Assembly (NCBI GenBank): GCA_002102555.1
Contig: MCFL01000090.1
Span: 1 to 64,000 of the forward strand
Origin: Catenaria anguillulae PL171
Taxonomy: Eukaryota > Blastocladiomycota > Blastocladiomycetes > Blastocladiales > Catenariaceae
Direction: 5' to 3'
DNA length: 64,000 nt
A program made the translations under genes and the position numbers. The notes beneath the pieces were generated by a model. The model saw nothing but the letters and a program-made list of their open reading frames with translations. It was not told where the DNA came from and made no database searches. Of the stretch, positions 26,156-63,645 are shown piece by piece; the stretch's first letter is position 1, and each line of letters begins with the position of its first letter.

Positions 26156-28267
26156 ATGCTCGCGGCCGAGACCACGTACCACCCGTCGACAGGCTTTGCG
26201 TCCCTGGCGGACGCCGACTCCAACCCAAACTCGTCGCGCGTGCTCGTGATCCTGCCACCTTCGCACAAGCACGCCGATGTGGACAGGGTCCTGGGGCTCG
26301 CACGCCGTGCATTCGCCGACCAGTCGCTCTCGCTCATCGACCTGTGCCTGCGCTTCGCAAAGGTAAGCAAGGACGACCTCGTTCTCGGATCTGATCCTCC
26401 GTCGGCGGCGGCCGACTCGCCTCACACCGCCAATGGTAACGGTGTGGGCACCAAGGGCAACAACAGCAACAACAACGATGGTTGGGACGACGATGAAGAC
26501 CCCAATCCAATCACCACTCTCCCTCCGCCGCTCTTCACCTCCATGCCCAAGCAGCCCAACCCGGCCGCGGGTAACCCGCCGCACACCCACAAGCTTTTCG
26601 TATCCAATCTCTCAACGGCGGCCGCCGATTCCGACCTCAAGCTCCTTCTTCCTCCCGGTCTCACGCCCGAAGAGACAAGCATTCACGCCCCGGCTCTGCG
26701 CGGACCTCGAAAGGAGATTGTGCGCGCCGTGACGTTCACATTCAAATCTGAAGCGGATACCGTCAAGTGTTACAAGTGGGTCATGGACCAGTATGCTAAG
26801 GGTGCTCTAGCAAAGCTGACGTTGCCCCAAGTCAAGCTCAGCATTCCAAACCCTCCACGTTCCTTGGCGCTCGCCGCAGAGGTGAATCCAGAAGCCTCAT
26901 TCAAACCTGCGCCGCCCGCAACATCTTCTGCCTACTCTCACGACGGGACACCGTCTGTTACACCCGTTCCAGCAGCTACGAACAATATCGGAAACAGCAA
27001 ATCTGCACGCTCTGTCCCCGAGCCGCCACCGACTGCACCGTTCATCAACGTCTCCAACCTCCAACCAACACTCTCGGAAACTCAAATCCTGACCTCACTC
27101 GTTCCGCACCCAATCAAGCTTGCCGGCGCCATTGTTCAACCTGCACGCATGGTCGGCCCGCACAAGGAGCTCGTCAAGCAAGTCAAGCTGGCGTTCAAGT
27201 CGCTCGACGACGCGCAAAAGTGCCACGATTGGATCAAGGAGCACGCCGTCGAAAAGGGCACATTGGCCAATTTGGTCATCAAAAAGACGAAAATCAGCGT
27301 GACTCGACCCATTGTACCAAACCCGCCCACGGCTGCTGCTGATGGCACGGCCAAGCCATCACCTGCGACGACAACCGACGTCGCCGCCACCGCAACACAA
27401 GAACACCAACCCGCCGACCCGCCAACCCCCACTCCCTCCCCATACCCGCCCGCATCTCCAAACCATTACCGCCTACACGTTGCCAACTTACACACATCCC
27501 TGCCCGACTCGGCCCTCCTCTCGCTGCTCCCGCCCGACGTGCCGCTTGCCGGCGCAACACTCTACCCCGCGCGACCCATTGGCCCGCGCGCACTCAACAT
27601 GCGGTCCGTGACATTCGCGTTCAAGGACAATGAGTCGGCGCACACGTGCTACGAGTGGATCAAAGAGTACGATGCGGGCGGCAAGGCCACGCAAATGACG
27701 GCGGTCAAGGGCATCAAGGTGTGGGTGTCGAGAGTGGTTGGGCCGGGCGAGACGTTGAGAGAAATGTCGGCCGCAGCGGCAGATCAGGGCCAGGTGGATG
27801 CGGCGGCAAGTAAAGGGAAAGGGAAGGCAAAGGGGACAGTAGATGCCGCGCCGCAAAGTGCGCCGCCGTCGCGGTCCCAGTCGCGTGCAAGCACACGCGC
27901 TTCAATAGCGGGTGCACCCGCCCCGGCCGCTTCGGCATCTGCACCTGCGCCAACAGCCAATTCAGTCGCCGATCAGCCAATCGAACCCATCGTCACCATC
28001 AATGGTATCAACCCCGAGTCACCCGTGACAACAGTCATGGGCCTGATTCTTGATCCGATTCGCGGCCAACTCGACCCAACGCGCATCTTGCAGACGGGCG
28101 TCAAGCCGCTGGATGGAACGGGCCCGCTCGCACGCGGGTTGCAGTTTGTGTTCGACACGACTGACACGGCCAAGCGGTTTGTGGCGCACGTGAGGCAGGC
28201 AAGTCGCGATGGCAAGTATCGCGAGATTCAAGTTGTTGGGAGTGAGTTGAGGGTGGTCAGGGGATGA
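26156..28267 (+). CDS. VILPP-family protein A (N domain, three RRM-like modules, C domain)
   Basis: Single-exon gene for 703 residues. The first ATG in frame is 26156 (MLAAETTYHPSTG). The N domain lies at about 27-75 (RVLVILPPSHKHADVDRVLG ... LCLRFAKVSKDDL). Three modules follow. They begin KLFVSNLSTAAADSDLKLLL, FINVSNLQPTLSETQIL and YRLHVANLHTSLPDSALL. Each has a VRxVTFxFK-type third strand and a CYxWI/CHDWI helix. A basic, Gly/Ala/Ser-rich linker (SKGKGKAKGTVDAA; SRSQSRASTRAS) precedes the C domain (VTINGINPESPVTTVMGLIL ... LQFVFDTTDTAKRF) at about 610-703. The xLxVxNL start and F.F third strand look like RNP2/RNP1 of RRM folds, so RNA or protein binding is inferred. It is among the more divergent members. 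Confidence 0.75.
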   Translation: MLAAETTYHPSTGFASLADADSNPNSSRVLVILPPSHKHADVDRVLGLARRAFADQSLSLIDLCLRFAKVSKDDLVLGSDPPSAAADSPHTANGNGVGTKGNNSNNNDGWDDDEDPNPITTLPPPLFTSMPKQPNPAAGNPPHTHKLFVSNLSTAAADSDLKLLLPPGLTPEETSIHAPALRGPRKEIVRAVTFTFKSEADTVKCYKWVMDQYAKGALAKLTLPQVKLSIPNPPRSLALAAEVNPEASFKPAPPATSSAYSHDGTPSVTPVPAATNNIGNSKSARSVPEPPPTAPFINVSNLQPTLSETQILTSLVPHPIKLAGAIVQPARMVGPHKELVKQVKLAFKSLDDAQKCHDWIKEHAVEKGTLANLVIKKTKISVTRPIVPNPPTAAADGTAKPSPATTTDVAATATQEHQPADPPTPTPSPYPPASPNHYRLHVANLHTSLPDSALLSLLPPDVPLAGATLYPARPIGPRALNMRSVTFAFKDNESAHTCYEWIKEYDAGGKATQMTAVKGIKVWVSRVVGPGETLREMSAAAADQGQVDAAASKGKGKAKGTVDAAPQSAPPSRSQSRASTRASIAGAPAPAASASAPAPTANSVADQPIEPIVTINGINPESPVTTVMGLILDPIRGQLDPTRILQTGVKPLDGTGPLARGLQFVFDTTDTAKRFVAHVRQASRDGKYREIQVVGSELRVVRG

Positions 28268-28543: not shown

Positions 28544-30916
28544 ATGACGCCACCAACAGTCAGCACCTCGACCAAATCGCCCGTCCTCGTCATCTTGCCG
28601 CCAACGCACAAGTGTCCGGACCTCACTCGAGTGCTCAAGCTTGCCCGCAAGGCCTTTGACGATGTCACACTCGACATCTTGGATCTCAACCTCCGATTCG
28701 CTTGGGTATCAGGCGACGAGTTGGAGAAGGACGGCCCTCAGGCGCCGCCTGCCTCAGCCGCGCTACGATCTGTACAAGCGCCCCCAGCTGCACTGTCGCC
28801 AACTGTCATTGAGCCGGTTCCTGCACACTCGAACGCACTCACTTACATTGGATCCATTCCACCGGCTAGTGTTGCTCAACCGCGTGTTCTAATTTCTGAC
28901 TTCGTTCCGACCTTGAGTGACGCCGAGATACTCAGCGCATGCCGCAACGGCGCGGATATTGCGGGCGCTACATTCTACCCTCCGCTTCCTCTAGGCCCTG
29001 GCCAGTCAAGCGTTCGCTCGGTCTTACTGGCGTTTTCCAAACTGAAGAGAGCCAAGCTTCACGTCCAATGGATCAAACAAGCGGCAGGCGCAGGGCTCTT
29101 GGCAGGCAAACTCGTGACGCATGTCGTGTCCGCAAATGCTATTCCGCGTCATGCGTCGCCTGACACCTTGATTCGACACAAGACGGCGGCAGCTTCCACA
29201 AGTGATTCGACTCTGCCATTTTCACCCGATCCTGCGTCCTTATCCAGTGTACCGCCTGCCGCAAATGTGCCAACAATTCTTTCCGATGCATTAATCCCAG
29301 CGTCTGCATGGCATTTCAACGTCAACAACCTGTTTGGATCTTTGAAAGACGCCGACATTTTGGCCAGCATAGTTCCCCAAGGAATCCCGCTCATCGGAGC
29401 CTCTCTTTCCCCGCCCAAACGTCGCAGCAAGAAGCGCCCCGAACTGGTTCGTGCCGTGTCGCTGTATTTCAAGAGTGAAGTCCATGCCAACTTGTGTCTC
29501 CTTTGGATTCGTCATCACTCGAAAATCCCGACCGGACCTGTGGCCAAGTTGAGGAATCCAGAAGCTGACATTTCCATGAATCTTTCATGGAAAGGGCTGT
29601 ATAAGACGGCGAAACCCAAGCATCCAACTCGCTTAGTCGCCACCTCGACGTTATCCTCAAAGCCGCAATCCACTGTCGCTTCCTTTTCGCCGCAATTGAC
29701 TGTCGCCTCCTTGACGCCCATCATTACACAGTTACCAACACTGTACCGCCTCACCATCGGCAACCTTCTTGATCATCTCACCGAAGACCAGCTCCGCACC
29801 ACCCTCGTGCCACCTGGTGTCATACCTGTTTCATTTCAACTTTTACCGTTGCGGCCACTTGTCGTCTGCCCCGTGATGGCCGGGACGGTTCAGCTTGATC
29901 TCGCTTCTGAGCGCGATTTAAACCTCACGCACGACTGGATCAAGGCCGAGGCTGTTGTTGGTGGTCGCGTGGCGCAATTGTTAGTTCCCAATTCCGAAAT
30001 CTCTGTCCAGATCCTCAAACTCACTGCTCCGCCAGCCCCGACAGCACTCACGTCACCCAGTTCAACGCCCGAAAACCCTTCCACTCCCGCTTTGCCTGCT
30101 CAGCCTGCTGGACCCGCCCCAAGTCCGCTTGATGTGTTGCCGGAAGCGTCACCTGAGCATTACCGCTTGCATGTTTCCAACCTCAAGCCTGGCCTCGAAC
30201 TCGCGCAAATAATTCCTGCGCTTGTCCCTCACGATATCAAACTCGCGGGCGTCACCCTTTTCGAGTCGCGCCCAATGGGGGGATCTCGCCGTGAGCTCGT
30301 GCGGTCGCTCAAGTTTGCCTTTTTCACGGAATCGGATGCCAAGCAATGTCAGCAGTGGATCAAGAAGGATCTTGACGGAGGCGTTTCTCGGCTCGTGCTT
30401 CCGGGTGCAAAGCTTGTTGTCGGCAATCCCATGGACCCAATGGTGTCCAATGTACCAGAATCGCATCATAATGATCTGGGGATGAATGGCAATCCGGATG
30501 TATTTCAGCCAACGGCGCCAGCCGGCCCATCACGGTTGCGTTCGCCGTCGGCTACTTCGGTCGCGTCATCAACAACCACGGCAACCTCAATGGCTGGCGA
30601 GTTATCCACGTCGCACTCTTCCTTGCAACAGCTCACGCAACACAAGCAATTCCGCATTTCTCTCACTGGGATCGACCCGTCCTTACCTGTTTCGACCGTG
30701 TTCAGTACCATTCTCGGCTCTCTTGAAGGTGCGGCTGCTGAGCCGGCACGTGTTGGCGTCAGGAGCGCAAACGGGCATCGAGGGGCAGAGTTTGTGTTTG
30801 ACTCGGAAGCGACGGCAAAGCAGTTTGCATTGCAAGTGTGGAATGGCATCAGAAAGGGAATGTATACGGGGTTGACGGCCGTGGGGGAGGAACTGACGAT
30901 TGAAAGGAAAGTATAA
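28544..30916 (+). CDS. VILPP-family protein B (N, alpha, beta, gamma, delta, C)
   Basis: Single-exon gene for 790 residues; ATG at 28544 (MTPPTVSTSTKSPVL). It has the complete standard layout. N domain: SPVLVILPPTHKCPDLTRVL ... LRFAWVSGDEL. Alpha: PRVLISDFVPTLSDAEIL. Beta: WHFNVNNLFGSLKDADIL. Gamma: YRLTIGNLLDHLTEDQLRTT. Delta: YRLHVSNLKPGLELAQIIPA ... NPMDPM. C domain: FRISLTGIDPSLPVSTVF ... AEFVFDSEATAKQF. Linkers are Pro/Ser/Thr-rich. Delta and C are nearly the same as in the minus-strand copies beyond 42 kb, while alpha to gamma differ more. There is no signal peptide or membrane segment, so the protein should be intracellular. Confidence 0.8.
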   Translation: MTPPTVSTSTKSPVLVILPPTHKCPDLTRVLKLARKAFDDVTLDILDLNLRFAWVSGDELEKDGPQAPPASAALRSVQAPPAALSPTVIEPVPAHSNALTYIGSIPPASVAQPRVLISDFVPTLSDAEILSACRNGADIAGATFYPPLPLGPGQSSVRSVLLAFSKLKRAKLHVQWIKQAAGAGLLAGKLVTHVVSANAIPRHASPDTLIRHKTAAASTSDSTLPFSPDPASLSSVPPAANVPTILSDALIPASAWHFNVNNLFGSLKDADILASIVPQGIPLIGASLSPPKRRSKKRPELVRAVSLYFKSEVHANLCLLWIRHHSKIPTGPVAKLRNPEADISMNLSWKGLYKTAKPKHPTRLVATSTLSSKPQSTVASFSPQLTVASLTPIITQLPTLYRLTIGNLLDHLTEDQLRTTLVPPGVIPVSFQLLPLRPLVVCPVMAGTVQLDLASERDLNLTHDWIKAEAVVGGRVAQLLVPNSEISVQILKLTAPPAPTALTSPSSTPENPSTPALPAQPAGPAPSPLDVLPEASPEHYRLHVSNLKPGLELAQIIPALVPHDIKLAGVTLFESRPMGGSRRELVRSLKFAFFTESDAKQCQQWIKKDLDGGVSRLVLPGAKLVVGNPMDPMVSNVPESHHNDLGMNGNPDVFQPTAPAGPSRLRSPSATSVASSTTTATSMAGELSTSHSSLQQLTQHKQFRISLTGIDPSLPVSTVFSTILGSLEGAAAEPARVGVRSANGHRGAEFVFDSEATAKQFALQVWNGIRKGMYTGLTAVGEELTIERKV

Positions 30917-35612: not shown

Positions 35613-35782
35613 TGCGTGCCTGCATGGTGTGCTGATATTGGCCTTTTTCCTTGCAGGGTCGCAATCTATCGATCGGCCGGAGCCGCCCTCACCTGCCGCC
35701 GGCCGTCGTTAACGCAAAGATGCGTGTGCGTATCTATGGGGCCCTCGCTTCGACTTCCCGACGAGGCGACAATGTCATTGCA

Positions 35783-38129
35783 ATGAGTTCACTCGATGCA
35801 ATCATGTCTGATGAGCACAAGTCAACGCTGCCGCCGTCAGCAACCGGCCCGGCCCCCGTTTGCCAGGCTTGCGGTTGTCGGTGTGGACAAACGTTGGTCT
35901 CTCACGGCCAACCGGCGGTCCAGAGCCAAACCGATCACTCACAGGTCCTTGTCCTTGTCGTCCCCGAGTCCCATTTCACTTGCACTGGCGACGGCGACTC
36001 CATTTCCAATCAAGTCCTCGCCCTTGCCAGGGAGACGTTTGGCAACGCTTTGATCGAGCCTCACCAATTGCACATCAAGTCGCTTGTGGACGAGGATACC
36101 TCTGCAACCCACCGGGCTCCACAAGTCGAAATTGATCCTGCCACCGTGCCATTGCCTCCGTCGCCGCTCTTGACGGCCGCCGAGCTCGACGACCCTGTTG
36201 ATTGCCCCGACCTCGGCCACGAAAACGACAATGAGCTGCCCGAGGCTAGCTCGCCGCTCACGGACTCGCTTCATGCTCAAGTCGTTCAAGCGCATGACAG
36301 CGACCTGAAGCCGTCTTCAAACCATCATGCGGAACCGGCGGCGAAACCATCACCTGCGTCTCGCCTGCCCGAAGCGTCACCCGACATGTACCGCATCATC
36401 CTGAGCAACCTCGTGCCGACCGTGACCAATGACCAAATCTACAGCCTCACCTTCCCGTACTCGCTGCTCGTTCGCGGGGCCACCTTTTACCCGCCTCGCC
36501 CGACCGAACCGGGCGGTCCAATGGCTCGGTCTGTCATGTTTGGGTTCCGCGACCATAACTCGGCAACAAAGCTCGCCAATTGGTTGATTCAAGGTCAGGC
36601 GGGCGGCCGGTTGCCTGAAATGGTTGCGCCGTTTGGTTTCGCCAACATTTCCCCTGTTATGCGGCCCGTGTTGCCAGAGCCAGAGCCACTGGTCAAAGAC
36701 ACTGCACCATCAGAGCAAAACAGCGAAGCCCCTTCGATTGATCTCGATCTTGCGGCTCGCGCTGCCAAGGCCGGTTTGCCCAACGGTATACTTTCTTTTG
36801 CTGCGTGTCATGACTCTCTGTATTCGGATAAGCTCCTGATACACATTGCTTGTCCATGTAGGCTCCTCCAAGCAGGAATCACAAGCTCCCAAATCAACTA
36901 CTCGCCGGCCAATCGCATCCATCATTACCGATTCCGACCACCGTCTTCAAGTCTTCAATCTCCTCGCCACTCGCTCCGAGTCAGACATTCTATCTCTCAT
37001 TCCGGAGCACATTCAGCTCACAGCTGCCGTTTTCCAACCCCCCACCATGGCTGGTCCCAACCGGCAACTCAAGCAATCCGTCACTCTTGGATTTGCCAAC
37101 GCTGCAGATGCCCTTGCGTGCTACCACTGGATCCAGAATCTCCTGACCAATGGCATGTTGGCGGATTATCTGGTTCCCGATACCAAGATTTGTGCGGCCC
37201 CGCCGTTGCAACCGAAAACGATTCATCCGAGGCCCGAACCTTTACCCGCACCCGCACTCGCGACTGCTCAATCTCAATCGATGGCACCCACTTTCCCATA
37301 CCCTTCGCACATGTCTTTCCAGCCTCAACCCCAACCGCAGCAGCAACAATTGCAATCGCAATCACAACCGCCTCCCATGTGGCCATACCCGCCTGCTTTC
37401 CAAAATTCCGTCTGGGCCGTCCCTGTGAATGCAGTCCCACTCCAGCCTGTCAGCGGATATTACCAGCAGCCACAGGCCTCACGCCCGCCCACCTCACCGA
37501 CCTACTTTTCCGCCGCGCCGTCCGCGGCTCCGCCATGCGTGGACAACCGGCACATTTCGCACGCCAGACTGAATCAGCCAGGAGCGCTTCCCTCGCCTCC
37601 ATCGTCCATGTCGTCTGCGTCGCCACAGCCCGCTGACCCAATGCCGCCCAAATCTGCTCCGGCGCCACAAACCAACAACCCTTTGTCGGCACTCGCGTCC
37701 GCGTCCGCACCCACCTCGGCTCCTATTTCGCCACCCATCACACCAACCGTTACGCCTGTTCCGCGCAATCCGTCGCCCGAACCGCAACCAGCCGACCCCA
37801 CACCTCGGGCGGCCGATTCTGTTTCCGGCAACGACGAGTTTGGCATCACCATTCACGGCATCAACCCGTTGGCCTCCGTGTCTGCGGTCCTTGGCACCGT
37901 TCTCGACCCGTTGCGTGGCCGCGTAAGCCCGATTCGCATTCAGCAAACGGGCGTGCACCCAATGCTCGACACGGAGGATGTGCAAGTGGAAGCGCGCGGG
38001 GTTAGGTTTGTGTTTGCGAGCGACGATGACGCAAAGCTGTTTGTCAGGCATGTGTTTGAGGCGAATTTGGATGGGGAATTGAGCGAGATTACGGCGGCTG
38101 GGTGTCGGTTGAAGGTGGTCAAGGGGTGA
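35783..38129 (+). CDS. VILPP-family protein E (divergent, Pro/Gln-rich)
   Basis: Predicted 756 residues. Exons are 35783-36785 and 36862-38129, with a 76-bp intron (GTATAC...TGTAG) at phase 1. The chosen start is MSSLDAIMSDEHKS; the frame is open further upstream. Residues about 55-105 are a weakened N domain (QVLVLVVPESHFT ... VLALARETFG ... LHIKSLVDED). A Cys motif, CQACGCRCG, lies just before it. Two RRM-like modules follow, split by the intron: YRIILSNLVPTVTNDQIYSL ... GATFYPPRPTEPGG, and HRLQVFNLLATRSESDILSL ... VTLGFANAADALACYHWIQ. A Pro/Gln/Ser-rich linker of about 200 residues leads to the C domain (FGITIHGINPLASVSAVLG ... VRFVFASDDDAKLF). It resembles F more than the minus-strand members. 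Confidence 0.72.
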
Positions 38130-40902: not shown

Positions 40903-41135
40903 ATGATGGGTAGATCCGAGTCTCACACATCGCTGGCTTCGCCCCTTGCGCTTGCCCTCGCGCACCACCACGGCCGCGTCGACGGCCAAAGTGATCTCAC
41001 AAATGGCCTTGACAAAGGGTGCTCGGCGACGTGCGGATGCCAAGGCAACGGGCAACAGCCGCAAGTGCTCGTGATTCTGCCGCCAGCCTTCAAGAACACA
41101 AGACTTGACCGCATCCTCACCGCTGCGCTCGTAGG
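40903..41135 (+). pseudogene. Severed 5' part of a VILPP gene
   Basis: From MMGRSESHTSLASPL the frame runs into a recognisable N domain (QVLVILPPAFKNTRLDRIL). It breaks off within the first helix near 41130 and meets a stop at 41143. The remainder of the N domain is missing. The sequence that follows at once belongs to the same family but on the opposite strand. Confidence 0.7.
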
Positions 41136-48937: not shown

Positions 48938-49400
48938 GGTGGCGGCAAAGAATAAATGATGATGCGCTGCGACAGGTCGAGGGCTTGCTTTGCTTTGGCC
49001 TAGGATACCAATCCATTGAGTTTTTTTTTTGCCGCCGGCCCCGGTCACGATCATGAGATCAATGATTCCTGGGCACCCCCTTCAAGGCGGTGCGCCGACG
49101 CTGTCAAAAAAACCTTCCACGTGTATCATACAGAGCACACATGTCGAAAGACAGATGGATTGAACGAAAGAGCGAGAAAATACATGGCAATAGATGGCAC
49201 TCGGGCAGACCCAGACGCCGAATTACAGAACAATGTCCCACTCGCCAGTTGTTGATCATGACGAAAAATCACGGCTTTCCATAGTCGACCGGTCCAGGGC
49301 ATACTCGGAACGTGACAAAAACCAAGCAAGTCATGACGGCAACAAGGCACATCGTAACTTTGCGTGCCCATCGGAAAGTTGCTGATGCACCCACGATTAC
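48938..49400. other. Spacer with poly-T tract
   Basis: A 463-bp spacer between two minus-strand VILPP genes (K/J and L), with a run of T at 49020-49030. It holds the promoter of K/J. No gene is seen. Confidence 0.45.
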
Positions 49401-51326: not shown

Positions 51327-54278
51327 TCAACTGCTGCCGCCCTTGGCAATCTTGAGCTCTTCTCCCGCCGCCGTCACGTCCGCATACTTTCCCTCCCTGA
51401 TTCCTATCCACACCTGTAACACAAACTGCTTTGCCGTCGCCTCCGAGTCAAACACAAACTCGGCTCCACGCCGTCCATTTGCGTTCCGGACGCCCATGCG
51501 CAGGGGCTCAACAGGGCCTGTTAGCGATCCGAGAATGGTGCTGAACACGGTTGACACGGGCTTGGCTGGATCGATGCCAATCAGTGAGATGTGGAACAAG
51601 GGCGCACCCATTGAAGGAGCAGGAAGCGACGATGTGTTGGACGACACGGATGGCGAACGTGATGGTTGACGAGACGCGAGATCGGAAGTGCGCTGTGTGT
51701 TTGAGGTGGCCAACACGGCCGCGTGCGGGCTGGGCGGCAAAGGCCGTGTTTGGGCGAGCGCGAGAAGGCTGGGAGATGTCGGCTCTTCCACCACACCACC
51801 CGCGCTCTTGTCAGCCTCGACTGGCGGATCCGCCATCATCGGGTCCATGGGATTACCCACAACAATCTTTGCACCTGCCAACACCACCTTGGACACACCA
51901 CCACCCGAATCTTGCTTGATCCACTGCTGACAACGTTTCGCGTCCCATTCTGTGAGAAATGCAAATTTGAGCGACCGGACCAGCTCGCGGCGCGATCCGC
52001 CCATTGGTCGTGGGGCAAAGAGTGACGCGCCAACGAGCCGTACGTCGCGCGGGACGAGCGCGGGAATAATTTGTGCAAGCTCGAGGTTTGGATCGAGGTT
52101 GGATACGTGCAGACGGTAGTTGTTGGGTGAAGCTTCGGGAAGGTCGGTAATGGTAGCAGGTGAGGCATGCAAGGAGGGTGAATGCGCCAAAGATGATGGA
52201 CTGTGCGTGTGTGACGAAGGAGGTGCGGGTGCTGGTACCGGTATTGCAGAAGAAGAAGAAGAAAAAGTGGATGGCTGGATGATATTGATAATGGGCTTGA
52301 CTTTTTGCGGCAGTAAACCGGCAACAAGTCCTCCTGCCACTGCTTGCGAACGGATCCAGTCGTGTGCGACTTGAAGTTCATGCTCGGATTTGAACTCAAG
52401 GGCAACGTAGCGGCACTTTTCGGGACGGCCAGTGAGCTGTTGGGATGGATGAAGAGTCATTCTCGAAGGTGAAAGGCCTGGTGGGAGAAGATTGGCAAAT
52501 AGCTGGTCCTGAGTAAAGTGATGGAGAATGTTGCCAACTGTGAGACGAAACGGCGATGATGGATTTGCCCCGGGAATGCTGGCCGGCTGTGGGGAAATGG
52601 CGCACGCTAAAGGTGGGCCCGATGCTCCGGTGGTGATGCTGCCTAACGAGATCGATGCAGGCGGAGTCATGGCAGCCGAAACGTAAACCTTGGCTCCGGG
52701 TGAAACCAAGTCAGTCATTGGGCCGCCAACGTCGGCTCTGGATGCGATCCATTCGCGACACACCCGTGCGTCTGATTGGGAGTCAAAAGCGAGCGTCATG
52801 TAGTGAACGGGCTCGGGGCGGCCAGTGCCAAGGGGGCGTGGGGCGTGAATCACTGCGCCTGCCAGGTTAATGCCGGCAGGGATGATGTTTGCAAGCACAT
52901 CTGCGGCGAGTGCGGACGGCCGTAGGTTGCCAACCTTGATCCGCCAATGACAGTCTTGCGGTTCTGGTACGCTGGCGGGAAGAGTTTGGGCAGACAATGG
53001 AAGCGACGGAAGCTTTGCCTGTGCACCGCCAATTTGGAGCGGACGAGAGGCAGTCGGTGATGGGGTGGGCTGTTGGGTAACCGATGAAGCCGGCGGTGAG
53101 CTGTTGTTGGTCGGGCCAGCGGGAGTCGTAGCAGGAATGAGTGTGGCGGCCGTTGGACGAGGAGCACCAGGTTCATTCAGACTGAGCTTGCCATTTGGCG
53201 TGATGATTTTACGCACAACCCCGCCCTCATCAGACTGATTCTTGATCCAATCGTAGCAAGCAAATGCATGGTCTTTTGACGCAAACGCCAGCTTGATAAA
53301 CAAGACCATCTCAGGCCGCCCTTTTCCAAGTCGGCTCGGTGGGTACATTGTCGCACCTGTCAAAGTGACGCCTTGAGGTACAAGGCTGTTGATAATCTCT
53401 TGCTTGGAGAGGGTGCTGATAAAGTTTCCTGCGACAAGCCGCCAGTTACGATCGGTGGCCTGGGGAAGACCGTGCGGCACTGCTGCTGCCGCCGGGGCGC
53501 AGGATGATACTGTAGCAGCGTCTTTTGCAACTTGCGGGGCCGTCAGCGAGTTGCCGAAAAGCAACGACTTGTTGGGCTCGCTCAACGTTTCCTCGAGCTC
53601 CACTCTTTGCGGAAGGAAGATGGTCAAGACACTCTTGGTCATCAACTTGCCCGCCAGCGACCCATTCGCGGCTGACTGCTTGATCCAATCGAAATACTCC
53701 TTGGCGTGCTTGGCCTTGGCAAAGGCAAAGACAACCGAGCGAACCATCGACCTGCCGAAGCCCAAGGGTCGCGCTGGGTAGAATATTGCGCCAATGATTT
53801 CAATCTCGGGAGGACACATGCCGAGAATTTCGGTGTCAGACAAGCTTGGTGCAATGTCGGAAAAGAAGATTCGGAAACAGTTGGGATCCGCCTCCTTGAT
53901 GGACAATTTGCGGACTGCGACTGCCGTTGTCGTCGCGTTATCTGACTGAGCGGCCAGTGGCGCGGGCAGCGCAGGCCGAACGGCTGCCGGCACCGGTGCT
54001 GCACCGGCGTGCGGTTGCGGAAGCGCTGGGCGACTTGAGGTGGTTTTCGCAGGCGAGAGTCCATGGGGACCTAAGCTGGGAGCGAAACCCTCCTCCATCA
54101 AGTCTGGCTGCAGCTCATCGCCCGATACCCAAGCGAATCGAAGGTTGAGGTCCAAGATGTGGAGCGCGAGGTCGTCAAAGGCTTTTCGGGCGAGCTTGAG
54201 GACTCGTTCCAGATCCGGACACTTGTGTGTGGGCGGCAAAATCACGAGCACGGGCGATTTGGTCGAGGCGGTGGTCAT
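51327..54278 (-). CDS. VILPP-family protein M (five modules, intronless)
   Basis: Single-exon gene for 983 residues from the ATG at 54278 (MTTASTKSPVLVILPP). The frame is open upstream of this but carries only the antisense of the next gene. Domains in order: N (VLVILPPTHKCPDLERVLKL ... LRFAWVSGDEL); alpha (FRIFFSDIAPSLSDTEILGM ... MVRSVVFAFAKAKHAKEYFD); beta (WRLVAGNFISTLSKQEIINS ... CYDWIKNQSDEGG); a second beta-type (WRIKVGNLRPSALAADVLAN ... CREWIASRADVGG); gamma (FRLTVGNILHHFTQDQLFAN ... VAHDWIRSQAVAGG); delta (YRLHVSNLDPNLELAQIIPA ... NPMDPMM); and C (HISLIGIDPAKPVSTVFSTI ... AEFVFDSEATAKQF). It is the longest uninterrupted member and the best template for aligning the family. Confidence 0.82.
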   Translation of the reverse strand: MTTASTKSPVLVILPPTHKCPDLERVLKLARKAFDDLALHILDLNLRFAWVSGDELQPDLMEEGFAPSLGPHGLSPAKTTSSRPALPQPHAGAAPVPAAVRPALPAPLAAQSDNATTTAVAVRKLSIKEADPNCFRIFFSDIAPSLSDTEILGMCPPEIEIIGAIFYPARPLGFGRSMVRSVVFAFAKAKHAKEYFDWIKQSAANGSLAGKLMTKSVLTIFLPQRVELEETLSEPNKSLLFGNSLTAPQVAKDAATVSSCAPAAAAVPHGLPQATDRNWRLVAGNFISTLSKQEIINSLVPQGVTLTGATMYPPSRLGKGRPEMVLFIKLAFASKDHAFACYDWIKNQSDEGGVVRKIITPNGKLSLNEPGAPRPTAATLIPATTPAGPTNNSSPPASSVTQQPTPSPTASRPLQIGGAQAKLPSLPLSAQTLPASVPEPQDCHWRIKVGNLRPSALAADVLANIIPAGINLAGAVIHAPRPLGTGRPEPVHYMTLAFDSQSDARVCREWIASRADVGGPMTDLVSPGAKVYVSAAMTPPASISLGSITTGASGPPLACAISPQPASIPGANPSSPFRLTVGNILHHFTQDQLFANLLPPGLSPSRMTLHPSQQLTGRPEKCRYVALEFKSEHELQVAHDWIRSQAVAGGLVAGLLPQKVKPIINIIQPSTFSSSSSAIPVPAPAPPSSHTHSPSSLAHSPSLHASPATITDLPEASPNNYRLHVSNLDPNLELAQIIPALVPRDVRLVGASLFAPRPMGGSRRELVRSLKFAFLTEWDAKRCQQWIKQDSGGGVSKVVLAGAKIVVGNPMDPMMADPPVEADKSAGGVVEEPTSPSLLALAQTRPLPPSPHAAVLATSNTQRTSDLASRQPSRSPSVSSNTSSLPAPSMGAPLFHISLIGIDPAKPVSTVFSTILGSLTGPVEPLRMGVRNANGRRGAEFVFDSEATAKQFVLQVWIGIREGKYADVTAAGEELKIAKGGSS

Positions 54279-54636: not shown

Positions 54637-57207
54637 TCACTCCCGATTCTCACCTCCGCAGCTCCCTCTCCCGATTCGCAACTCGCACCCATCGGCCGTA
54701 ATGCTCGCAAGCGTCCCTGCCTTGATTGCCATCCACACCTGCAGCACAAACTGCTTGACGACGGCCTCAGCGTCAAACATAAACTCGACTCGGCGTCGTC
54801 CATCGACATCCCGGATGCCCATCTTGTCCGGCTCAACCGAGCTTGGCAGCGACCCAAGGATGGTACTAAACACAGTCGATGCGGGCGTACTCGGGTCAAT
54901 GCCGCTGATGGAGATATGAAACTGTTTTGCACTTGTTTTGGCTGACGTGGTTGACGCAGCCAACTCGGCCGCGGTCGGCGGTGCTTGCGCGTCGTCACAT
55001 CGATGAGACGGAGACGGCGGATCAGAACCGCAAGCGTTGTCATCCAGCTCCACACTTGCCTCTGGCTGTGGATCCAACGACACATGTGGCTCCTTGGGCT
55101 TCCCAATGTCTAATCTGACTCCTGACAGCGCAACCTTGGCTACACAACCACCCGCATCCTGCTTGATCCACTCGCGGCACCGCTTGGCATCTGCTTCCGT
55201 CACAAACGCCAGCTCAAGCGACCGCACCAGTTCACGACGGTACCCGCCCATTGCGTGAGGCGCAAGGAGTGTTGCACCGGCAATTGTCATGTCTTGAGGG
55301 ACGAGCATGGGAAGGATTCGCGCAAGGTCGAGGTCTGGTCGGAGATTCGACACGTGAAGTCGAAAGTGGTCTGGTGAAGTGTCGGGCAGATTGGCAAATG
55401 AGGACGATGCTATCATATGAAATGACATGGGAGATGCGCGTCAGTCAAGACCAAGTGGGCCAAAAGCCAAGAATATGTCGGAGATCGCACATGTTGGAGG
55501 CGGTACTGGTCCCAGCGGCAACTTGCTCATTGTCACGGCAACCCTGACATTGGGCGGCAAGAGCTTTGCAACGCGTCCGCCGGCCACTGCTTCGGATCGG
55601 ATCCAATCATGCGTTGCTTGCAAATCGTGCTCAGAATCAAAGTCGAAAACAATCGAGCGGCACTGTTCTGACCGGCCAGAGAGCTGCTGGAGCGGTTGGA
55701 TCGACATGTCCGTGGGAATGACGCCTGGCGGGACAAGGGCGGCAAACAGTTCGTCGCTCTTGAGATGATGCAGGAGATTGCCGACGGTAAGCTGAAACCT
55801 TGGAGTGGGCGGATGAGGAGGGGAGGAAGAGGGTGAAAGATGATTTAAAGGCGAGCCAAACGAGGAAAAATCAGATGATAGCGAAGATATCAGGGTTGAA
55901 AGCGAAGAGATGGATGGTGTCGAAGTGGATGCTACGTTGTCAGATGTAGAATCGCATGTGCTTGATGGCGCTGACACAATCGGCGGCAATGGGCGACTGA
56001 TGCTGATTCTGAACGTCGGAACAATCACCTTCGCCACCAAGCCACCAGGGTTGGATCGCTTGAGGATCCACGCCCGGCACGCGATCGCATCAGCTTCGGA
56101 ATGAAATGCCAGCTTGACGTCCCGCCCCTGCGGAGTCTGCTCGGTGTGACCGCGTCCGTTGCTCCCAAGTGCCTTGGGAAAACGGATCGTCGCGCCCGCA
56201 AGAATACAGTGACGAGGCACGATGCTAGCGAGAATCTCGGATTTGCTGAGCGACCCAATCACGTTTCGCACAATGAGCCGCCAGTAGGAATCGTGCGCCT
56301 CGGGTAGGTGAGCGGGACGAGTTGGTGATGGTGAAACAGGGTTTGCGGGCTGGTCTTGACTGGTCACAGCCGGGTCTGACTCGCCATCCTGGTTCAAAAA
56401 CGCTACCCTCTTGCCCTCTGGCATGAGCTCTTCTGGCGCCATTCCCCGAGGTAGAAAGTACACGGTCACGCTTGGGACCACAAACACGCGGTCGAGCAAC
56501 CTGTTTCCGGCCTCCTTGACCCATGCGTGGAATTCCTTGGCCTGCCTTGCCCTTTGGAACGCAAATGTGGCCGAACGAACCATCGTACCGTTTGCACCGA
56601 GCGGCAACGGCTGGTAGAATGTGGCGCCATTGATTGTCGTGTCGGGCGGGCACACTTTGAGAATGTCGGAATCCGACAGGGTTGGGACAAGGTCCGATAC
56701 AAACACGCGGAAGCAGTTGATATCAGCTTCTTGAATGATCGTTGGTGTTGTCAGAGAGACCAATGAAGCGTGAGCGGCGGCAGCTGATGGAGGCTGCTCG
56801 GTCGCGTAATTCTGAGCACCGCCAGGAGCAAGTGGCAAGCATTGAGTGACGGCCGGCGCCGGAGGAGGAAAAGATGCTGCAGGTGAATTAAACGGTAAAG
56901 CCAAAGAAACATGTTCTTGCGTCGTCGCTGATCCAGTCGACCCATTCACCTCATGATGATCGGCCCAGCTGGCCGTGGCGGCCGGTGTGTCATCCGGCAG
57001 TGGAGATGATGAAGGTTCATCGTCCTTCTGCAACTCGTCACCGGCAACCCAGGCAAACCTCAGGTTGAGGTCCAAGATGTTGAGCGCGAGATCGTCGAAG
57101 GCTCTGCGCGCGAGCTTGAGCACACGCTCGAGGTCCGGGCACCGTTGTGTCGGCGGTAGGATCACGAGCACGGGGGATTTCGTGCTTATAATCGAGGTGG
57201 CCAACAT
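54637..57207 (-). CDS. VILPP-family protein O/N (N, alpha, beta, gamma, delta, C)
   Basis: Predicted 842 residues. Exons are 57207-55452 and 55409-54637, joined over a 42-bp intron (GTCTTGACTGAC...GATAG) at phase 1. This is the shortest intron in the window, and a frameshift is the alternative. The start is MLATSIISTKSPVLVILP. Domains: N (PPTQRCPDLERVLKLARRAF); alpha (FRVFVSDLVPTLSDSDILKV); beta with an insert of about nine residues before its third strand (WRLIVRNVIGSLSKSEILAS ... GRDVKLAFHSEADAIACRAW); gamma (FQLTVGNLLHHLKSDELFAA); delta (FRLHVSNLRPDLDLARILPM ... CREWIKQDAGG); and C (HISISGIDPSTPASTVFSTI ... VEFMFDAEAVVKQF). The intron lies in the gamma-delta linker. Confidence 0.72.
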
Positions 57208-57349
57208 TTCGGTTGTGATTTGTGAGTCACAGAGGATTGCATGGGGTCGTTGGAAGTTGCACGATAATAAACATACATGGCAGAGCTGACCGGACAATAC
57301 AATGTATCGATTGATATCCTTCGTAATCGAACACGATCACTGCTCACAC

Positions 57350-57991
57350 GCTCTTATCCCCACTTCAGCTCGGCGCCCTCGGCCGTGATCCCAGCGTACG
57401 TCCCGGCCTTGATCCGTATCCACACTTGCCTCGCAAACTGCTTGGCCTCTGCCTCTGTACGTACCAAATGTGAACAATGAAACCCCTCGCCGCCCGTTCT
57501 CATGCCGGACGCCCACGCGCAGGTTCAACAGGGCTCGACCAGGATCCAAAAATGGGGCCGAAAACTGCGGCAACAGACTGCGTCGGTTCGATGCCGTCGA
57601 TGGAAACGTCATGTTCTGGTTCTTGCGTCCGGTCCGGCGAACAGCGCGACGAGGGCGAGCCTAGCGAAGCTTCCGTTGAGTACGTTCGTGATGAATCGTC
57701 TGCGCTGAGCGTGGGAGAGAACGGCGAAAGTGAGAATAGCGGCGAGTAAGGCCGGATCAGTAGCTTGAACATGGAAGGGGCGGGTTCGTTTGTGCGTTTG
57801 TGTCGAGTGGGATAGAACGCGGCATATGGTGCAAAAAATCTTCGCTTGCTTCCAGCCTTTCAGGCGACTGCCTCCACGGCACAGTTCGCCGACCTGTCCA
57901 TCTTACGAGGGCACTGGTGTCAGGGCGGCAGGATCACGAGCACGGGCGACTTTGATGAGGCAGCCAGTGGACCGGAGGCGGTGGCGGTCAT
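57350..57991 (-). pseudogene. VILPP deletion relic (start plus broken C domain)
   Basis: From the ATG at 57991 the minus strand reads MTATASGPLAASSKSPVL then VILPP and a stop, with a faint continuation of the N domain. About 300 bp further on is a decayed C domain. It reads HDVSIDGIEPTQSVAAVFGP ... SPVEPARG in one frame, then ENGRRGVSLFTFGTY- and AELKWG-like sequence in other frames, down to about 57350. All modules in between are missing. This is the same kind of internal deletion as at 45.3-45.5 kb, but older. Confidence 0.7.
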
Positions 57992-58289: not shown

Positions 58290-61200
58290 CTACACACTCC
58301 CCCTGCCAATCCTCAACTCTGCTCCCTCGGCCGCAACACTGGCAAACACGCCATCCTGGATCGCGATCCACGCCTGCAACACAAACTGCTTGGCATCCGA
58401 CTCTGAATCAAACACAAACTCTGCCCCGCGTTGGCCTTCCATGTTCCTGATTCCCATGCGTGCTGGCTCAGCAGCCGGGCCAGTGAGCGCGCCAAGAATG
58501 GTACCAAAAACAGTTGACACGGGCTTCACCGGATCAATCCCGTTGATGCAAATGCGGAACTGCTTGGATTTCGTGACCGTCGAGGAAGACGAGTGAGTCG
58601 TGGACTCGCCAGTCGACGAGGCCGCCGTAGTCGTTGATGCGAGCGAGGGCGAACGCAACTGTGCCTGGTCGACAGACGGCGACCTTTGAGGGGTGGCTGG
58701 ATGATGCACGCCAGCTTGCTCATCGGAAAGCAAAGCATACGGATTTCCCACCAGCGCAGGGTTGCGAGGCTCGGATGGGCCCGGGTCAGATACCATGGGA
58801 TCCATGGGATTGCCAACGACAATCTTTGCACCGGGCAACACCACCTTGGCCACGGTGCCGCCCATGTCCTTTTTGATCCATTCTTGGCACCGCTTTGCGT
58901 CGGATTCGGTCATGAACGCAAACTTGAGGGAACGCACGAGCTCACGGCGGGATCCGCCCATGGGTCGCGGAGAGAAGAGGGATGCACCAACAAGCTTCAC
59001 GTCGCGCGGTACCAAGACGGAAACGATTTGCGCGAGCTCGAGATCGGGTTTCAAGTTTGATACGTGAAGACGGTAGCGATCTGGAGATGCTTCGGGCAAA
59101 GAAGTTGAGGATGCGACGTTGAGCGGCGTGAAGTGTGCAGGTGAAGCAATGGGCTTGGTCAAAGTTGAGTTCTGTTGAGGTACATCCTCCGTTGGATCCA
59201 CGGCCCCAGGTTTGCACATATTGCACACGAGCTTGACTCCAGGCAAAAACAGTCGACCAAGTCGCCCACCAGGAACAGCTTGTGCACGGACCCAGTTGTG
59301 CGCTGCTTCAAGTTGCTGCTCGGATTCATATGCAAACGTGACATAGAGAACAAGCTCTGGGCGGCCAGAGAGCTGCACAGGTGGTCGAACCGTCATGCCC
59401 ACAGGCAACATGCCGGGTGGAATGAGGGCGGCCTCGAGCTGAGCCTTGGTAAGATGTTCGAGCAAGTTGCCAACAATGAGACGGTAAGGGGCAAGTGCGT
59501 CGACTTCAGGGAGGTTGCTCGTGCTCGGGCCAGTCGACGGAGACGGGTCTGGGCTTGGGCCGGGCGCAGATTTGATGGGAAACAGAGCTATACCGACAGC
59601 TGAGTGTGAGAAGCCTGGTCAAAAAGTGAGTAGCGGAACACAAGATGAGAAACGTGCGACTCGATCCCGCAGCGGGTTTGTAAACACACGCAATAATCTT
59701 TACGTTAGGCGGCATCAACTTGGCCACACAGCCGCCAGGAACCGCCTCGGCGCGAATCCAATCATGCGTCACTTGTACGTCTCGCTCGGAAGAAAACTCA
59801 AACAAGACAAAACTGCACTTTTCCGTTCGACCCGAGAGTTGCTCCTGCGGCATGAGCGACATGCCGACAGGCGAAATGCCTGGCGGAATCAAACCGGCGA
59901 GCATTTCCTCTTTTGAGAGGTGTTCATTGAGGTTGCCCACCCTGAGACGATATGGAGCGGTCGAGTCGGCTTGGCGCAAGTTGGTAGCAAGCAGCTGGGA
60001 CAAAGTGAGTTGAATTGGAGACGCAGTTGCCGCGGCAGTTTTTGACGAGGTATCGACGGCTTGAGCTTGTGCAGCAGTGCCCGAAACGATCATTGGTCGA
60101 CACGGTACCGGCAGAGCAATCTTGCCCGTTGGGATCACAATCCTGGCAACCCACCCACCTGGCTCGGCCTGCTTTTTGATCCACGCATGACACGCACTCG
60201 CATCCACCTCGGACTGGAACGCCAACTTGATATCCCGCACGATTTCAGGCCGCCCGTCGCCAAGCGGCTTGGGATCCCGAATCGTTGCACCTGCAAGTGT
60301 AATGCCTTGAGGAACAATGTTGGCGAGGATCTGCTTCTTGGTCAACGATCCAATGAGGTTTCCAACAATGAAGCGCCAGCAACCGTCGTCGGCCTCGGGC
60401 AAGTCGTCCGGCACTCCAGAAGTTCGCGGGACCACCGTCAACGATGCTGCATCCAATGCAAAGGGCAGGTCCGCATCGCTACCGTAAAACGCTGCCTTTT
60501 TCTTGTCATCCATCATGTCCTCGGGTGACATGCCTTGAGCAAGAAAGTACGTCGACACCACCTTTGCGGCGGCCTTGCCTGTCAGTAGCCCTGTCGACGT
60601 TGCCTGCTTGATCCAATCCAAATACTCTTTTGCATGTTTTGCCTTGGCAAACGCCAACGTGGCCGATCGGACCAGCGACTTTTTCGGCCCAATCGGGCGT
60701 GCCGGATGAAACGTAGCGCCAATGATTTTGATGTCGTCGGGGCATATGGTAAAGATTTCGGCATCCGTCAAGGTCGGCGACAGGTCAGTTAGAAACACTC
60801 GGAAGCAGGTGAGTTCGGCTTCCTTGATGCGCACTTTCCCGGCAGACGCACAGGCAGGAGCCGGCGTCGGCACAGGCACGGGCACTGGTGGAGATTGATG
60901 CAATACAGGCACTGGCTTGAGCGATTCGGTGGCCGCGGGATACGACACGGACGAGTTAGGCAAAGACAAGTTCGGGGCCGGATGTGCGTCGATTCGAGGG
61001 GTTGGAATAGCTGGCATGGCCGACATGACCGGCAGTGGTTCGACGGCCGGGTTCGAATTCGACGGTGGTGTAACGGCATCATCGACAAGCTCATCGCCCG
61101 ACACCCACGCAAACCTCAGGTTGAGGTCCAAAATGTTGAGAGATAGGTCGTCAAAGGCCTTGCGCGCAAGCTTGAGCACACGGTCCAAGTCGGGGTACTT

Positions 61201-61380
61201 GTGCGTGGGCGGCAATATCACGAGCACGGGAGATTTGGTCGTGGTGGCGGCGAGCGAGCTGGCAGCGGCGTGGCCATGGCCGAGACTGGAGCTGGGGCTA
61301 CTCCAGGCGAGGTGCTGAGGCCACATGGTCCCATTTGCCTCTTGCGCAGAATCCGCGATTGCTTGATAGTATGAATGCAT
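58290..61380 (-). CDS. VILPP-family protein R/Q (five modules, gamma duplicated)
   Basis: I model one gene of about 1014 residues. A first exon from 61380 is joined to a second that ends at 58290. The intron lies within about 59560-59670. The joint that fits phase best is 59615-59660, but its donor is weak, so its edges are uncertain. The start MHSYYQAIADSAQEANG adds about 48 residues before the N domain (SPVLVILPPTHKYPDLDRVL). Domains: alpha (FRVFLTDLSPTLTDAEIFTI); beta (WRFIVGNLIGSLTKKQILAN); gamma (YRLRVGNLNEHLSKEEMLAG); a second gamma (YRLIVGNLLEHLTKAQLEAA); delta (YRLHVSNLKPDLELAQIVSV ... NPMDPM); and C (FRICINGIDPVKPVSTVFGT ... AEFVFDSESDAKQF). The intron separates the two gammas. Confidence 0.7.
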
Positions 61381-61794: not shown

Positions 61795-63645
61795 CTATTC
61801 CATTGGCGCCATGGGATTGCCCACCGTGACCTTTGCCCCCTTGACGACAATCCTGGCCACCGCGCCGGTTTGATCCTTCTTGATCCAATCAACACACTTT
61901 TTCGCCTCCATTTCCGTGGCAAATGCCAGCTTGAGCGACCGCACAAGCACGTCGCGCTTGGACCCGGACAGCGGCCGCGGCGTAAACATGGACACGCCCA
62001 GCACCGTGACGCCCTTTGGCGGCACTAACGCGGCCAGAATTTGCGGCACATCGACTGTTGGGAGCAGGTTGGAGATGTGCAAACGGAATGCCGACGGCGA
62101 TGCTTCTGGGAAATCCGACGAACCCGCGGCCGCGGCCGCGGCTGCGGGTGCACTGTGTGCCACAGGTCCCGGCACGGCCAGAGTCGGAGCAACAGGCGCC
62201 TTGACCTTGACTGGCGGTGCCACGCCAGACATGCTCACGACCAGCTTAGTCCTCGGTGCAATCATGTCGGGAACCCTGCCGCGTTGCTCCTTGACGTGCT
62301 CGTGCACTTGGTCCATGTCGTCCTTTGTCGCAAACTCGAGCAGCACGCGCCGCACACTGTCCTCGCGCCCAACGAGTTGTTGCAAAGGTGCCAGCGTCAA
62401 GCCAACGGGACGGATGCCGCGCGGGAGGAGGCCAGACAGAAGTTGCGATGGGGTTATGTCTGGGAGTAGGTTGCCAATCGTAACCCTGTAGGCGGCCTTG
62501 GGATTGGCTTCGGGCAGTGGCGAGGAAGCAGCTGGATCAGGCGTGTTCGCCGAGACGGAGGATGGGCGAGGGATGGACGTGGGTGTGGGCGTCGCCGTGG
62601 GAGACGGGCGATACATGGGCGCAAACGGGTTGAGTGGACTGCGGCTGCTCGTCACAGATGCCTGATCGGCAACAACGGCAATGGGTGCCTGCACAACGGG
62701 CACTGACTCGTTCACGGTCGTCGGCGGCGACTGCAGCGTTGCGCCCGCAGAAGGTCGGATCAGGTTTCCAACATGCACCTTAGTTCCTGGCGCAACCATG
62801 CCGTACACCACGCCGCCCTTTTCTGCCTCTTGCTTGACCCACGCGTGGCACGCATGCGCGTCGTCTTCGTCCGCAAACGCCAACTTGACATAGCGCACGA
62901 GTGGGCCAGACTTTCCTGGCCCGGCGGGCACGGGCGAGTGGAATGTGGCGCCCGTGAGCGAAACGCCGCGCGGCACAATGGTGGCGAGGATTTCGGCGGA
63001 AGAAAGTGTGCCGTTGAGATTGCCCACAATCAGGCGCCAGTTTGCCGGGTGGGCGTCGGGCAATGGTCCGGACGGCACGAGTGTCGAAGCGGCGGCGGCG
63101 ACGGGTTGAGCAGGCTGGCGAGTCGGAGGGGTCCAATCGTCGGTTGTTTGGTCCTTTGAGGAAGCAACACTGGTGGGTCTGGCAGGTGAAGGCTGCGGGG
63201 TCGGGTGAATCGTGTGTTGCATCACGACCGCGGGGGCGGCGGTGGCAGAGCCGGATTGAGCGGCGATGTCGGTAACACGAGGATGGTCTTGCGGGTGCGT
63301 GTGCCCATTCTGGTTTTGCACTGCCCACGGGTCATGGTTGTGGTCGTTGGCGGGTTGTTGAGGTGGCTCTTGCAGCGAGGCCGTCGCCATCTTGGAGGAA
63401 CAAGTTTCGGCTTGGCCATGGCCGTGCCCATCGGCAGCGGCGTCGGCGGCGTCGGCAGGCAGCAGCTCAAGGCTCGATACGGTCTCAAACTGGACATTGA
63501 GGTCGGCAATGGACAGGGACACATTGCCAAAAGCCTTGCGGGCGAGGCCGAGGACCTTACCGAGGTCGGCACACTTGTGGGCCGGCGGCAGGACGACGAG
63601 CACGGGCGACTTGAGAGGGGTCATGGTCATGGTCATGGCTGGCAT
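61795..63645 (-). CDS. VILPP-family protein S (N, beta, gamma, delta; no C domain)
   Basis: Single-exon gene for 616 residues from the ATG at 63645 (MPAMTMTMTPLKSPVLVV). The open frame upstream has no support. Domains: N (PVLVVLPPAHKCADLGKVLG ... LNVQFETVSSLELL, somewhat divergent); a long polar linker; beta (WRLIVGNLNGTLSSAEILAT ... CHAWVKQEAEKGG); gamma (YRVTIGNLLPDITPSQLLSG ... with EHVKEQ in place of HDWIK); and delta (FRLHISNLLPTVDVPQILAA ... CVDWIKKDQTGAVARIVV). It ends NPMAPME at a stop after delta, as gene L does. L and S therefore form a sub-type without alpha and without the C domain. An Ala run (GCGGCCGCGGCCGCGG) lies in the linker before delta. Confidence 0.8.
   Translation of the reverse strand: MPAMTMTMTPLKSPVLVVLPPAHKCADLGKVLGLARKAFGNVSLSIADLNVQFETVSSLELLPADAADAAADGHGHGQAETCSSKMATASLQEPPQQPANDHNHDPWAVQNQNGHTHPQDHPRVTDIAAQSGSATAAPAVVMQHTIHPTPQPSPARPTSVASSKDQTTDDWTPPTRQPAQPVAAAASTLVPSGPLPDAHPANWRLIVGNLNGTLSSAEILATIVPRGVSLTGATFHSPVPAGPGKSGPLVRYVKLAFADEDDAHACHAWVKQEAEKGGVVYGMVAPGTKVHVGNLIRPSAGATLQSPPTTVNESVPVVQAPIAVVADQASVTSSRSPLNPFAPMYRPSPTATPTPTSIPRPSSVSANTPDPAASSPLPEANPKAAYRVTIGNLLPDITPSQLLSGLLPRGIRPVGLTLAPLQQLVGREDSVRRVLLEFATKDDMDQVHEHVKEQRGRVPDMIAPRTKLVVSMSGVAPPVKVKAPVAPTLAVPGPVAHSAPAAAAAAAGSSDFPEASPSAFRLHISNLLPTVDVPQILAALVPPKGVTVLGVSMFTPRPLSGSKRDVLVRSLKLAFATEMEAKKCVDWIKKDQTGAVARIVVKGAKVTVGNPMAPME

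Follow-up and report, generated by a model that had tools for sequence, protein, structure and literature searches.

What do the proteins encoded by a crowded array of repeat genes in an early-branching fungus do, and from what fold were they built? The array lies between positions 26156 and 63645 of a 64,000-nucleotide stretch of contig C448 (C448:1-64000, here called the window) from Catenaria anguillulae PL171 (Blastocladiomycota), reportedly a "nematophagous fungus" according to one paper title, whose assembly comprises 41.07 Mb in 457 contigs. We propose that the genes form one paralogous family of intracellular adaptors made of non-canonical modules of the RNA recognition motif (RRM) superfamily, flexible linkers and a short N-terminal (N) domain of its own kind, an account that seems to us about evenly poised between right and wrong. 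Whole-gene duplication would have spread the family when its order of modules, alpha-beta-gamma-delta followed by a C-terminal (C) unit, was already set. The N, delta and C units would dock onto partners shared by the paralogues, and the alpha, beta and gamma modules would give every paralogue its own target. Delta would use a conserved His/Ser/Val/Ser/Lys sheet face in place of stacking aromatics, for RNA or protein, and the likeliest setting would lie in RNA biology, either in mRNA-protein complexes or in RNA silencing.

Modules, predicted fold and probable kinship to RRMs

A module profile iterated over the six-frame open reading frames (ORFs) of the window returned 52 stretches between 26588 and 63039, comprising 40 modules of ~85 residues (alignment A1), nine C domains (A2) and three fragments. 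Linkers are flexible and rich in Pro, Ala and Ser, and a proline-rich PPRPLG stretch sits between module strands 2 and 3. Together with the N-domain alignment (A3), the profile recovered all eleven genes and three relic places (~41.0-41.9, 45.4-45.5 and 57.4-58.0 kb) of a first-pass annotation made from the sequence. That annotation had claimed a shared N domain, which holds for ten of the eleven genes (ten sequences, 18 invariant columns); the N domain of gene 3 is very divergent, was seen by eye only, and its allele is missed by the N profile. Its range of one to five modules is right at the lower end and too low at the upper, since the number before the C domain reaches six in P0002, the deposited allele of gene 6, which reads N-alpha-epsilon-alpha-beta-gamma-delta-C. 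Most genes do end in a C domain as claimed (genes 7 and 11 lack one in frame), but it is not a separate domain: it is a diverged module, because it aligns with the modules profile to profile at 95% probability over 83 columns and folds in the full-length model in the same beta-alpha-beta-beta-alpha-beta order.

AlphaFold, given a 40-row alignment, modelled one delta module with a predicted local distance difference test (pLDDT) score of 89.0 and a predicted template modelling score of 0.77 as strand-helix-strand-strand-helix-(short helix)-strand, matching, as a prediction, the RRM-like fold guessed earlier. The 790-residue model of gene 2, built with 11 sequences, has a low overall confidence of 62.5, with linkers mostly at pLDDT <50; its five units, including C, keep the same strand-helix order. 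The predicted structures thus have the ~80-90-residue beta-alpha-beta-beta-alpha-beta arrangement of the RRM superfamily.

When the module profile was widened with six modules of flanking relatives (46 in total), a step taken after a weak first result (below) had been seen, it aligned with eight Catenaria RRMs in hhalign at a probability of 74% over 68 columns with a score of 28.8, against a mean of 9.8 (standard deviation 1.9, maximum 16.4) for 100 column-shuffled controls. The global mode gave a probability of 15% and a score of 21.7 (shuffles maximum 11.1). The local alignment is in register with the RRMs at the N-L of strand 1 and in the Phe/Ala spacing into helix 2. Because the widened profile outscores its shuffled controls, we accept descent of the modules from the RRM superfamily as likely, not proven.

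Gene and relic inventory

The genes and relics are as follows; numbers beside units are their window positions.

26156..28267, plus strand: gene 1, with N, three modules (26588, 27044, 27467) and C 27980; ORF open from 26138; allele on contig C436 at 95% protein identity.
28544..30916, plus strand: gene 2, with N, alpha, beta, gamma, delta and C in a single 790-residue ORF; deposited allele P0001, a C. anguillulae PL171 hypothetical protein, 99% identical over the whole ORF length.
35651..38129, plus strand: gene 3, with modules 36389 and 36939, which lie in different frames and may be separated by an intron, and C 37836; start uncertain.
38373..40764, plus strand: gene 4, with N 38580, one module 39033 and C 40438, in two ORFs.
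41041..41931, both strands: relic place 1, with an N fragment on the plus strand (41041-41142) and, on the minus strand, a module fragment (41116-41295) and an N-like fragment (41824-41931).
42531..45013, minus strand: gene 5, with N 44798, alpha 44435 and epsilon 44033, and a second ORF with gamma 43419, delta 43029 and C 42576; candidate 92-base intron GTGAGT..CAG.
45363..45520, minus strand: relic 2, an N start and, overlapping it in a different frame, a delta tail; broken on C436 too.
Within 45748..49054, minus strand: gene 6, first ORF, with N 48743, alpha 48383 and epsilon 47987.
Within 45748..49054, minus strand: gene 6, second ORF, with alpha 47437, beta 47005, gamma 46612, delta 46207 and C 45793; intron candidates weak; on the other haplotype the gene is one deposited 1039-residue model (P0002).
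49401..50963, minus strand: gene 7 (P0003), with N, beta 50292, gamma 49863 and delta 49434, without a C domain.
51327..54278, minus strand: gene 8, a single open frame with N 54084, alpha 53631, beta 53184, a second beta-class module 52686, gamma 52296, delta 51861 and C 51354.
54637..57207, minus strand: gene 9, with N 57004, alpha 56464, beta 56005 and gamma 55540, and a second ORF with delta 55111 and C 54679.
57366..57967, minus strand: relic 3, a C-domain tail (57366-57458) and a bare N start (57923-57967).
58290..61380, minus strand: gene 10 (P0004), with N 61060, alpha 60577, beta 60118 and gamma 59695, and a second ORF with gamma-class 59229, delta 58818 and C 58314; could instead be two genes.
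61795..63645, minus strand: gene 11, with N 63436, beta 62776, gamma 62242 and delta 61828; start codon uncertain; frame without a C domain; ORF open to 63873.

Several genes are probably divided among ORFs by short introns, with candidate joins of which some are weak.

Residues of the sheet face

The first-pass annotation had taken an N-L in strand 1 and an F-x-F in strand 3 as RRM signatures. The former is seen, but the latter argument fails: in the register of both the 46-module alignment and the model, the conserved F-x-F falls on RNP1 positions 6 and 8, which are buried, and not on positions 3 and 5, whose residues contact RNA by stacking in canonical RRMs. The residues of L-x-F-x-F take turns with exposed V, S and K, the buried side of strand 3 being taken from known RRM structures. 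The fold guess still holds; because F-x-F is core packing rather than the stacking aromatics of RNP1, we class the modules, from their residues, as non-canonical RRMs. Aromatics occupy RNP2 position 2 (RNP2-2) in 5, RNP1-3 in 11 and RNP1-5 in 1 of the 40 modules, all three coincide in none, and a single gamma module (49863) combines the two RNP1 aromatics; in delta, RNP1 positions 3 and 5 are S and mostly K, respectively. With the RNP aromatics mostly absent, the module motif would not by itself imply RNA binding.

The same residues bear on a competing explanation, that the RRM-derived modules only dock proteins, as scaffolds never contacting RNA, which we regard as quite possible, though on balance doubtful. 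The RRMs of UPF3, those of the U2AF homology motif type and those of GW182 are protein-protein docking units. Consistent with such a role, RNP1-3 and RNP1-5 lack aromatics in 8/8 delta and 7/7 alpha modules, and the highest query-normalised template modelling (TM) scores listed for the module model belong to UPF3 RRMs, from entries on the UPF2-UPF3 interaction. It fits less well with the isoelectric point, which exceeds 7 in 34 of the 40 modules (8.9-10.3 in 8/8 delta), or with the Y/F retained at RNP1-3 in 6/9 gamma and 5/8 beta modules and the F retained at RNP2-2 in 4/7 alpha modules.

Two haplotypes and the evolution of the modules

A second contig, C436, is colinear with the window at 376-440 kb, with 94-98% identity in aligned blocks of >600 bases and some kb-sized gaps, and for this reason the two are read as haplotypes. 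Between them, the ratio of non-synonymous to synonymous substitution rates (dN/dS) is 0.20 for the modules (37/40 mapped), 0.12 for C (9/9) and 0.14 for N (9/10), the unmapped units being three modules and the N domain of gene 11, which lie outside the stretch compared. Within classes, paralogues gave median dN/dS values of 0.14-0.26 with a median dS >1, from the 113 of 149 pairs with estimable dS (6/9 C and 7/10 N sequences). Purifying selection therefore acts between alleles and, on average, between paralogues; averaged in this way, neither comparison showed diversifying selection. Six of the 37 modules are 100% identical between the haplotypes and the others differ by at most 5% (window 28544-30916 and 51327-57207 versus C436), identical patches that may reflect gene conversion or patchy loss of heterozygosity.

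A tree of 49 units, which has few columns for so many rows, placed gamma, C and delta in one clade each (bootstrap 99-100) and beta likewise (89/92), while the alpha clade also takes in both epsilon units. Because the classes form clades, the module order appears to have been fixed before the window genes multiplied; these clades and the protein-level selection between alleles also establish that the modules are no chance likeness.

On average, the outer units are more constant and the middle units diverge faster. Mean amino acid distances are 0.14 for N, 0.32 for delta and 0.37 for C, and 0.47, 0.54 and 0.47 for alpha, beta and gamma. Among the five genes that have the full set of six units, the N/delta/C mean was below the alpha/beta/gamma mean in 10/10 pairs (not independent of one another), with the same result when N was left out. 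Single units break this order, as in genes 2 versus 6 (alpha 0.26, delta 0.32). The sheet face of delta hardly varies, its five positions having an identity of 0.95, compared with 0.87 for the core and 0.61 for the rest (P = 0.008 against random columns, uncorrected, for author-chosen positions and with four classes tried); in gamma, beta and alpha it is not special (P 0.67, 0.76 and 0.34).

Faster divergence of the middle modules, in a tandem cluster, might also be expected of an allorecognition or host-parasite recognition family under diversifying selection, and presence and absence between haplotypes would agree with this. A gene of the family that is open on C436 (415319-416854; N, module, tryptophan-containing linker, C) is mostly missing (~2.5 kb) from the window haplotype, where its remnant is the N fragment at 41041-41142 in relic place 1, which matches its start; an ankyrin-like gene, in turn, lies in a stretch of the window that has no partner in the C436 alignment. 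We nevertheless consider such a family unlikely, as the allelic and paralogous ratios, up to the highest pair value printed (0.63), indicate purifying selection when averaged over sites, and the N termini, judged by eye only, carry no secretion signal.

Evidence against the proposal and other folds

Besides the exceptions to the order of divergence, the choice of sheet-face positions and the scarcity of RNP aromatics, several results weigh against RRM-derived adaptors as proposed. The 40 window modules, compared with the eight RRMs before the profile was widened, reached a probability of only 19% over 24 columns, with a score of 21.5 (100 shuffles: mean 9.7, maximum 16.0), and the C domain alone scored 15.0, with no excess over its shuffles (maximum 17.4). 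The N domain, for which a structure prediction had also been suggested, is poor in the gene 2 model and has no confident fold; its profile found no relative among PDB sequences, where it had two short-stretch matches (E 0.13 and 1.1), and in hhalign it scored 10.3 against RRMs and 10.5 against the modules, not above shuffled RRMs. In Foldseek, the module gave 874 matches at E<=10, of which none was at E<=0.001. The best query-normalised TM-scores among the 50 listed matches, 0.65, are those of UPF3B/UPF3 RRMs, but by target-normalised score an ACT domain (0.69) outranks them, and ribosomal S6, ACT and PII proteins stand beside RRMs. Searched with the whole model, Foldseek returned seven matches at E<=0.001, of which three were efflux pumps, one, DND1, was an RRM protein and the last three were neither; RRM proteins, judged by title or protein identity, made up 18 of the 50 matches listed.

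The predicted module fold is thus shared with other ferredoxin-like folds, between which Foldseek alone is undecisive. A fold of this other kind, such as an ACT-like sensor, without RRM descent would account for the S6, ACT, PII and dimeric alpha+beta matches beside or above the RRMs. We hold it to be improbable given the in-register profile alignment with RRMs (N-L, Phe/Ala spacing), a one-sided comparison in which RRM profiles alone were used.

The first-pass annotation recognised no named family, and this was borne out in Pfam, the only family library searched (NCBIfam, PHROGs and PADLOC lay outside the search), where no cut-off was reached by nine family ORFs, 40 single modules or five ORFs of flanking relatives. 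The scan covered ten window ORFs (the nine and one ankyrin-like neighbour, which matched ankyrin models), with only the modules scanned for genes 3 and 4 and for several second ORFs, and the N and C domains scanned only inside whole ORFs. Matches under the cut-offs were judged to be due to chance: Dbl7 (E 0.02), Biotin_lipoyl (E 0.0053) and Tir_receptor_M (E 0.13) on family ORFs, nine families each matching 1 of the 40 modules (best E 0.01), and two matches on the flanking ORFs. The family modules do not match the curated RRM model PF00076, which has at least 122 matches in the genome, none of them on C436 or C448 among the matches listed. Among PDB sequences, the module profile matched first a napin helix (E 0.0048, 19 residues), which we dismissed as a local likeness, and the TIA-1 RRM at E 1.6 over the first 25 residues; the C-domain profile had no match.

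Two protein-database searches gave the same four Catenaria proteins, their candidate lists having been filled up to 7999 entries, probably with linker-like words. A third search with linker-free words scored 1528 candidates, with 0 at E<=10, and missed its own source genes too, so that neither absence from other species nor lineage specificity can be inferred from it. A literature search on Blastocladiomycota and the RNA recognition motif returned titles on other subjects; no search was made for the family by other words.

That the cluster is a functionless set of decaying duplicates, as the three relic places might suggest, is scarcely credible in view of long open frames on both haplotypes and dN/dS values well under 1.

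Flanking relatives and tryptophan motifs

The family is not confined to the window, and its relatives offer a possible origin. The flanking members read are more distant, with one or two modules and with or without a C-type unit. In the relative at C18:48492-50927 (L053; allele C436:590k, L052), tandem NDWG repeats lie between the N domain and the RRM-like unit: the protein has 27 W, 24 of them inside a 532-residue linker, and 15 WG/GW pairs compared with 5.6 expected, a number reached in 0/1000 shuffles. A DNA pattern of two close DWG codon triplets had 11 matches genome-wide, seven of which fall in this relative or its allele, and its reversed control had one. The linker of the C436:415k relative contains 6 W among 169 residues; WG/GW pairs did not exceed shuffles in C436:531k (18 W; 8 versus 5.0, P 0.108), C436:476k (P 0.28) or C95:5k (P 0.196). 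In the window, linkers hold 4 W in 1524 residues (eight ORFs with linkers; genes 4 and 5 and second ORFs left out), and tandem W motifs like those of Argonaute-hook proteins occur only in relatives outside it.

In plant Pol V and in GW182, Argonaute is reported to be bound by tandem W motifs, the AGO hook (PMC10991848). The Catenaria genome has Piwi-domain matches on C423, C112, C53, C390, C179, C310 and C46 and RNA-dependent RNA polymerase (RdRP) matches on C423, C112, C76 and C346. Piwi-domain and RdRP matches lie ~84-87 kb apart on C112 and on C423. Given the W-rich relatives and the Argonaute and RdRP genes, a silencing origin is worth testing, and a silencing link of the family should be treated as a lead only. 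More specifically, the family might descend from a fungal GW182-like silencing scaffold (N domain, Argonaute-hooking W linker, RRM-like C unit) that was duplicated along one locus in Catenaria while its RRM-like part multiplied into alpha-beta-gamma-delta arrays, yielding dedicated adaptors, each directing the machinery of silencing or decay to a target of its own, a scenario that we consider a long shot. In the literature searched, no paper names both Catenaria anguillulae and Argonaute.

Extent and neighbors of the locus

In two protein searches of the same genome, the family matches listed, whose counts are lower bounds, fell on C436 (402-590 kb), C448, C95 and C18, so that the family runs beyond the window, in two haplotypes. 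Because C436 matches a stretch of C95 at 475-480 kb with 96.6% identity and a stretch of C18 at 588-592 kb with 97.4%, and C448:84.4-87 kb matches C436:462-464.6 kb with 97.2%, the members found could all share one ~190-kb chromosome stretch, partly read, in two haplotypes.

Ankyrin-like genes with VLxWW repeats lie at window 31271-35612, 23569-25602, 11486-13480 and 5247-7788. Three scanned ORFs of these match Pfam Ank models, ORF 24044-25354 has no match, and the ORF at 33717-35612 is in the stretch without a counterpart in the C436 alignment. An M1 aminopeptidase gene of at least two ORFs (Peptidase_M1_N, Peptidase_M1, ERAP1_C) occupies 18804-21907, and a RING finger protein (zf-RING_2) is encoded at 14674-15342. 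Scans of the window with Rfam at gathering scores and for tRNA found none.

Comparison with known systems

The modules resemble the RRM superfamily (PF00076, RRM_1) in predicted topology, in the strand-1 N-L and in the 68-column alignment of the widened set, and differ from it in having no PF00076 match, in mostly lacking RNP1/RNP2 aromatics and in carrying the proline-rich PPRPLG between strands 2 and 3. UPF3/UPF3B offers the closest listed structural likeness by query-normalised TM-score, its PDB entry titles naming UPF2. UPF3 has one RRM, which binds UPF2 by protein docking, plus a C-terminal motif that binds the exon junction complex, whereas the present family has up to seven units counting C, an identity of 14% and no Pfam match. 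PABP-type proteins likewise array RRM-like units on one chain, but a Catenaria gene that we name PABP-like (L047) has classical RNP1/RNP2 motifs and a PF00076 match, which the family lacks.

The C18/C436:590k relative resembles GW182/TNRC6 in its N-terminal domain, W-rich middle of 15 WG/GW pairs and C-terminal RRM-like unit; unlike GW182, the window genes have W-poor linkers, and the N domain differs. The UBA domain and PABP-binding motifs of GW182 had no Pfam match above cut-off in the five flanking ORFs, and no other search for them was made. Should the W-repeat relative bind Argonaute, this would suggest a GW182-like layout in an early-branching fungus; a fungal Argonaute hook is already known in Tas3 of fission yeast, but no fungal hook protein is known to us that also carries an RRM-like unit. 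The large lineage-expanded modular families known in RNA biology use helical repeats (PPR, OPR). If our proposal is true, the expansion of RRM-like units whose RNA-stacking residues are mostly lost, the outer ones steadier and the inner ones diverging, would be another route to adaptors with differing specificities.

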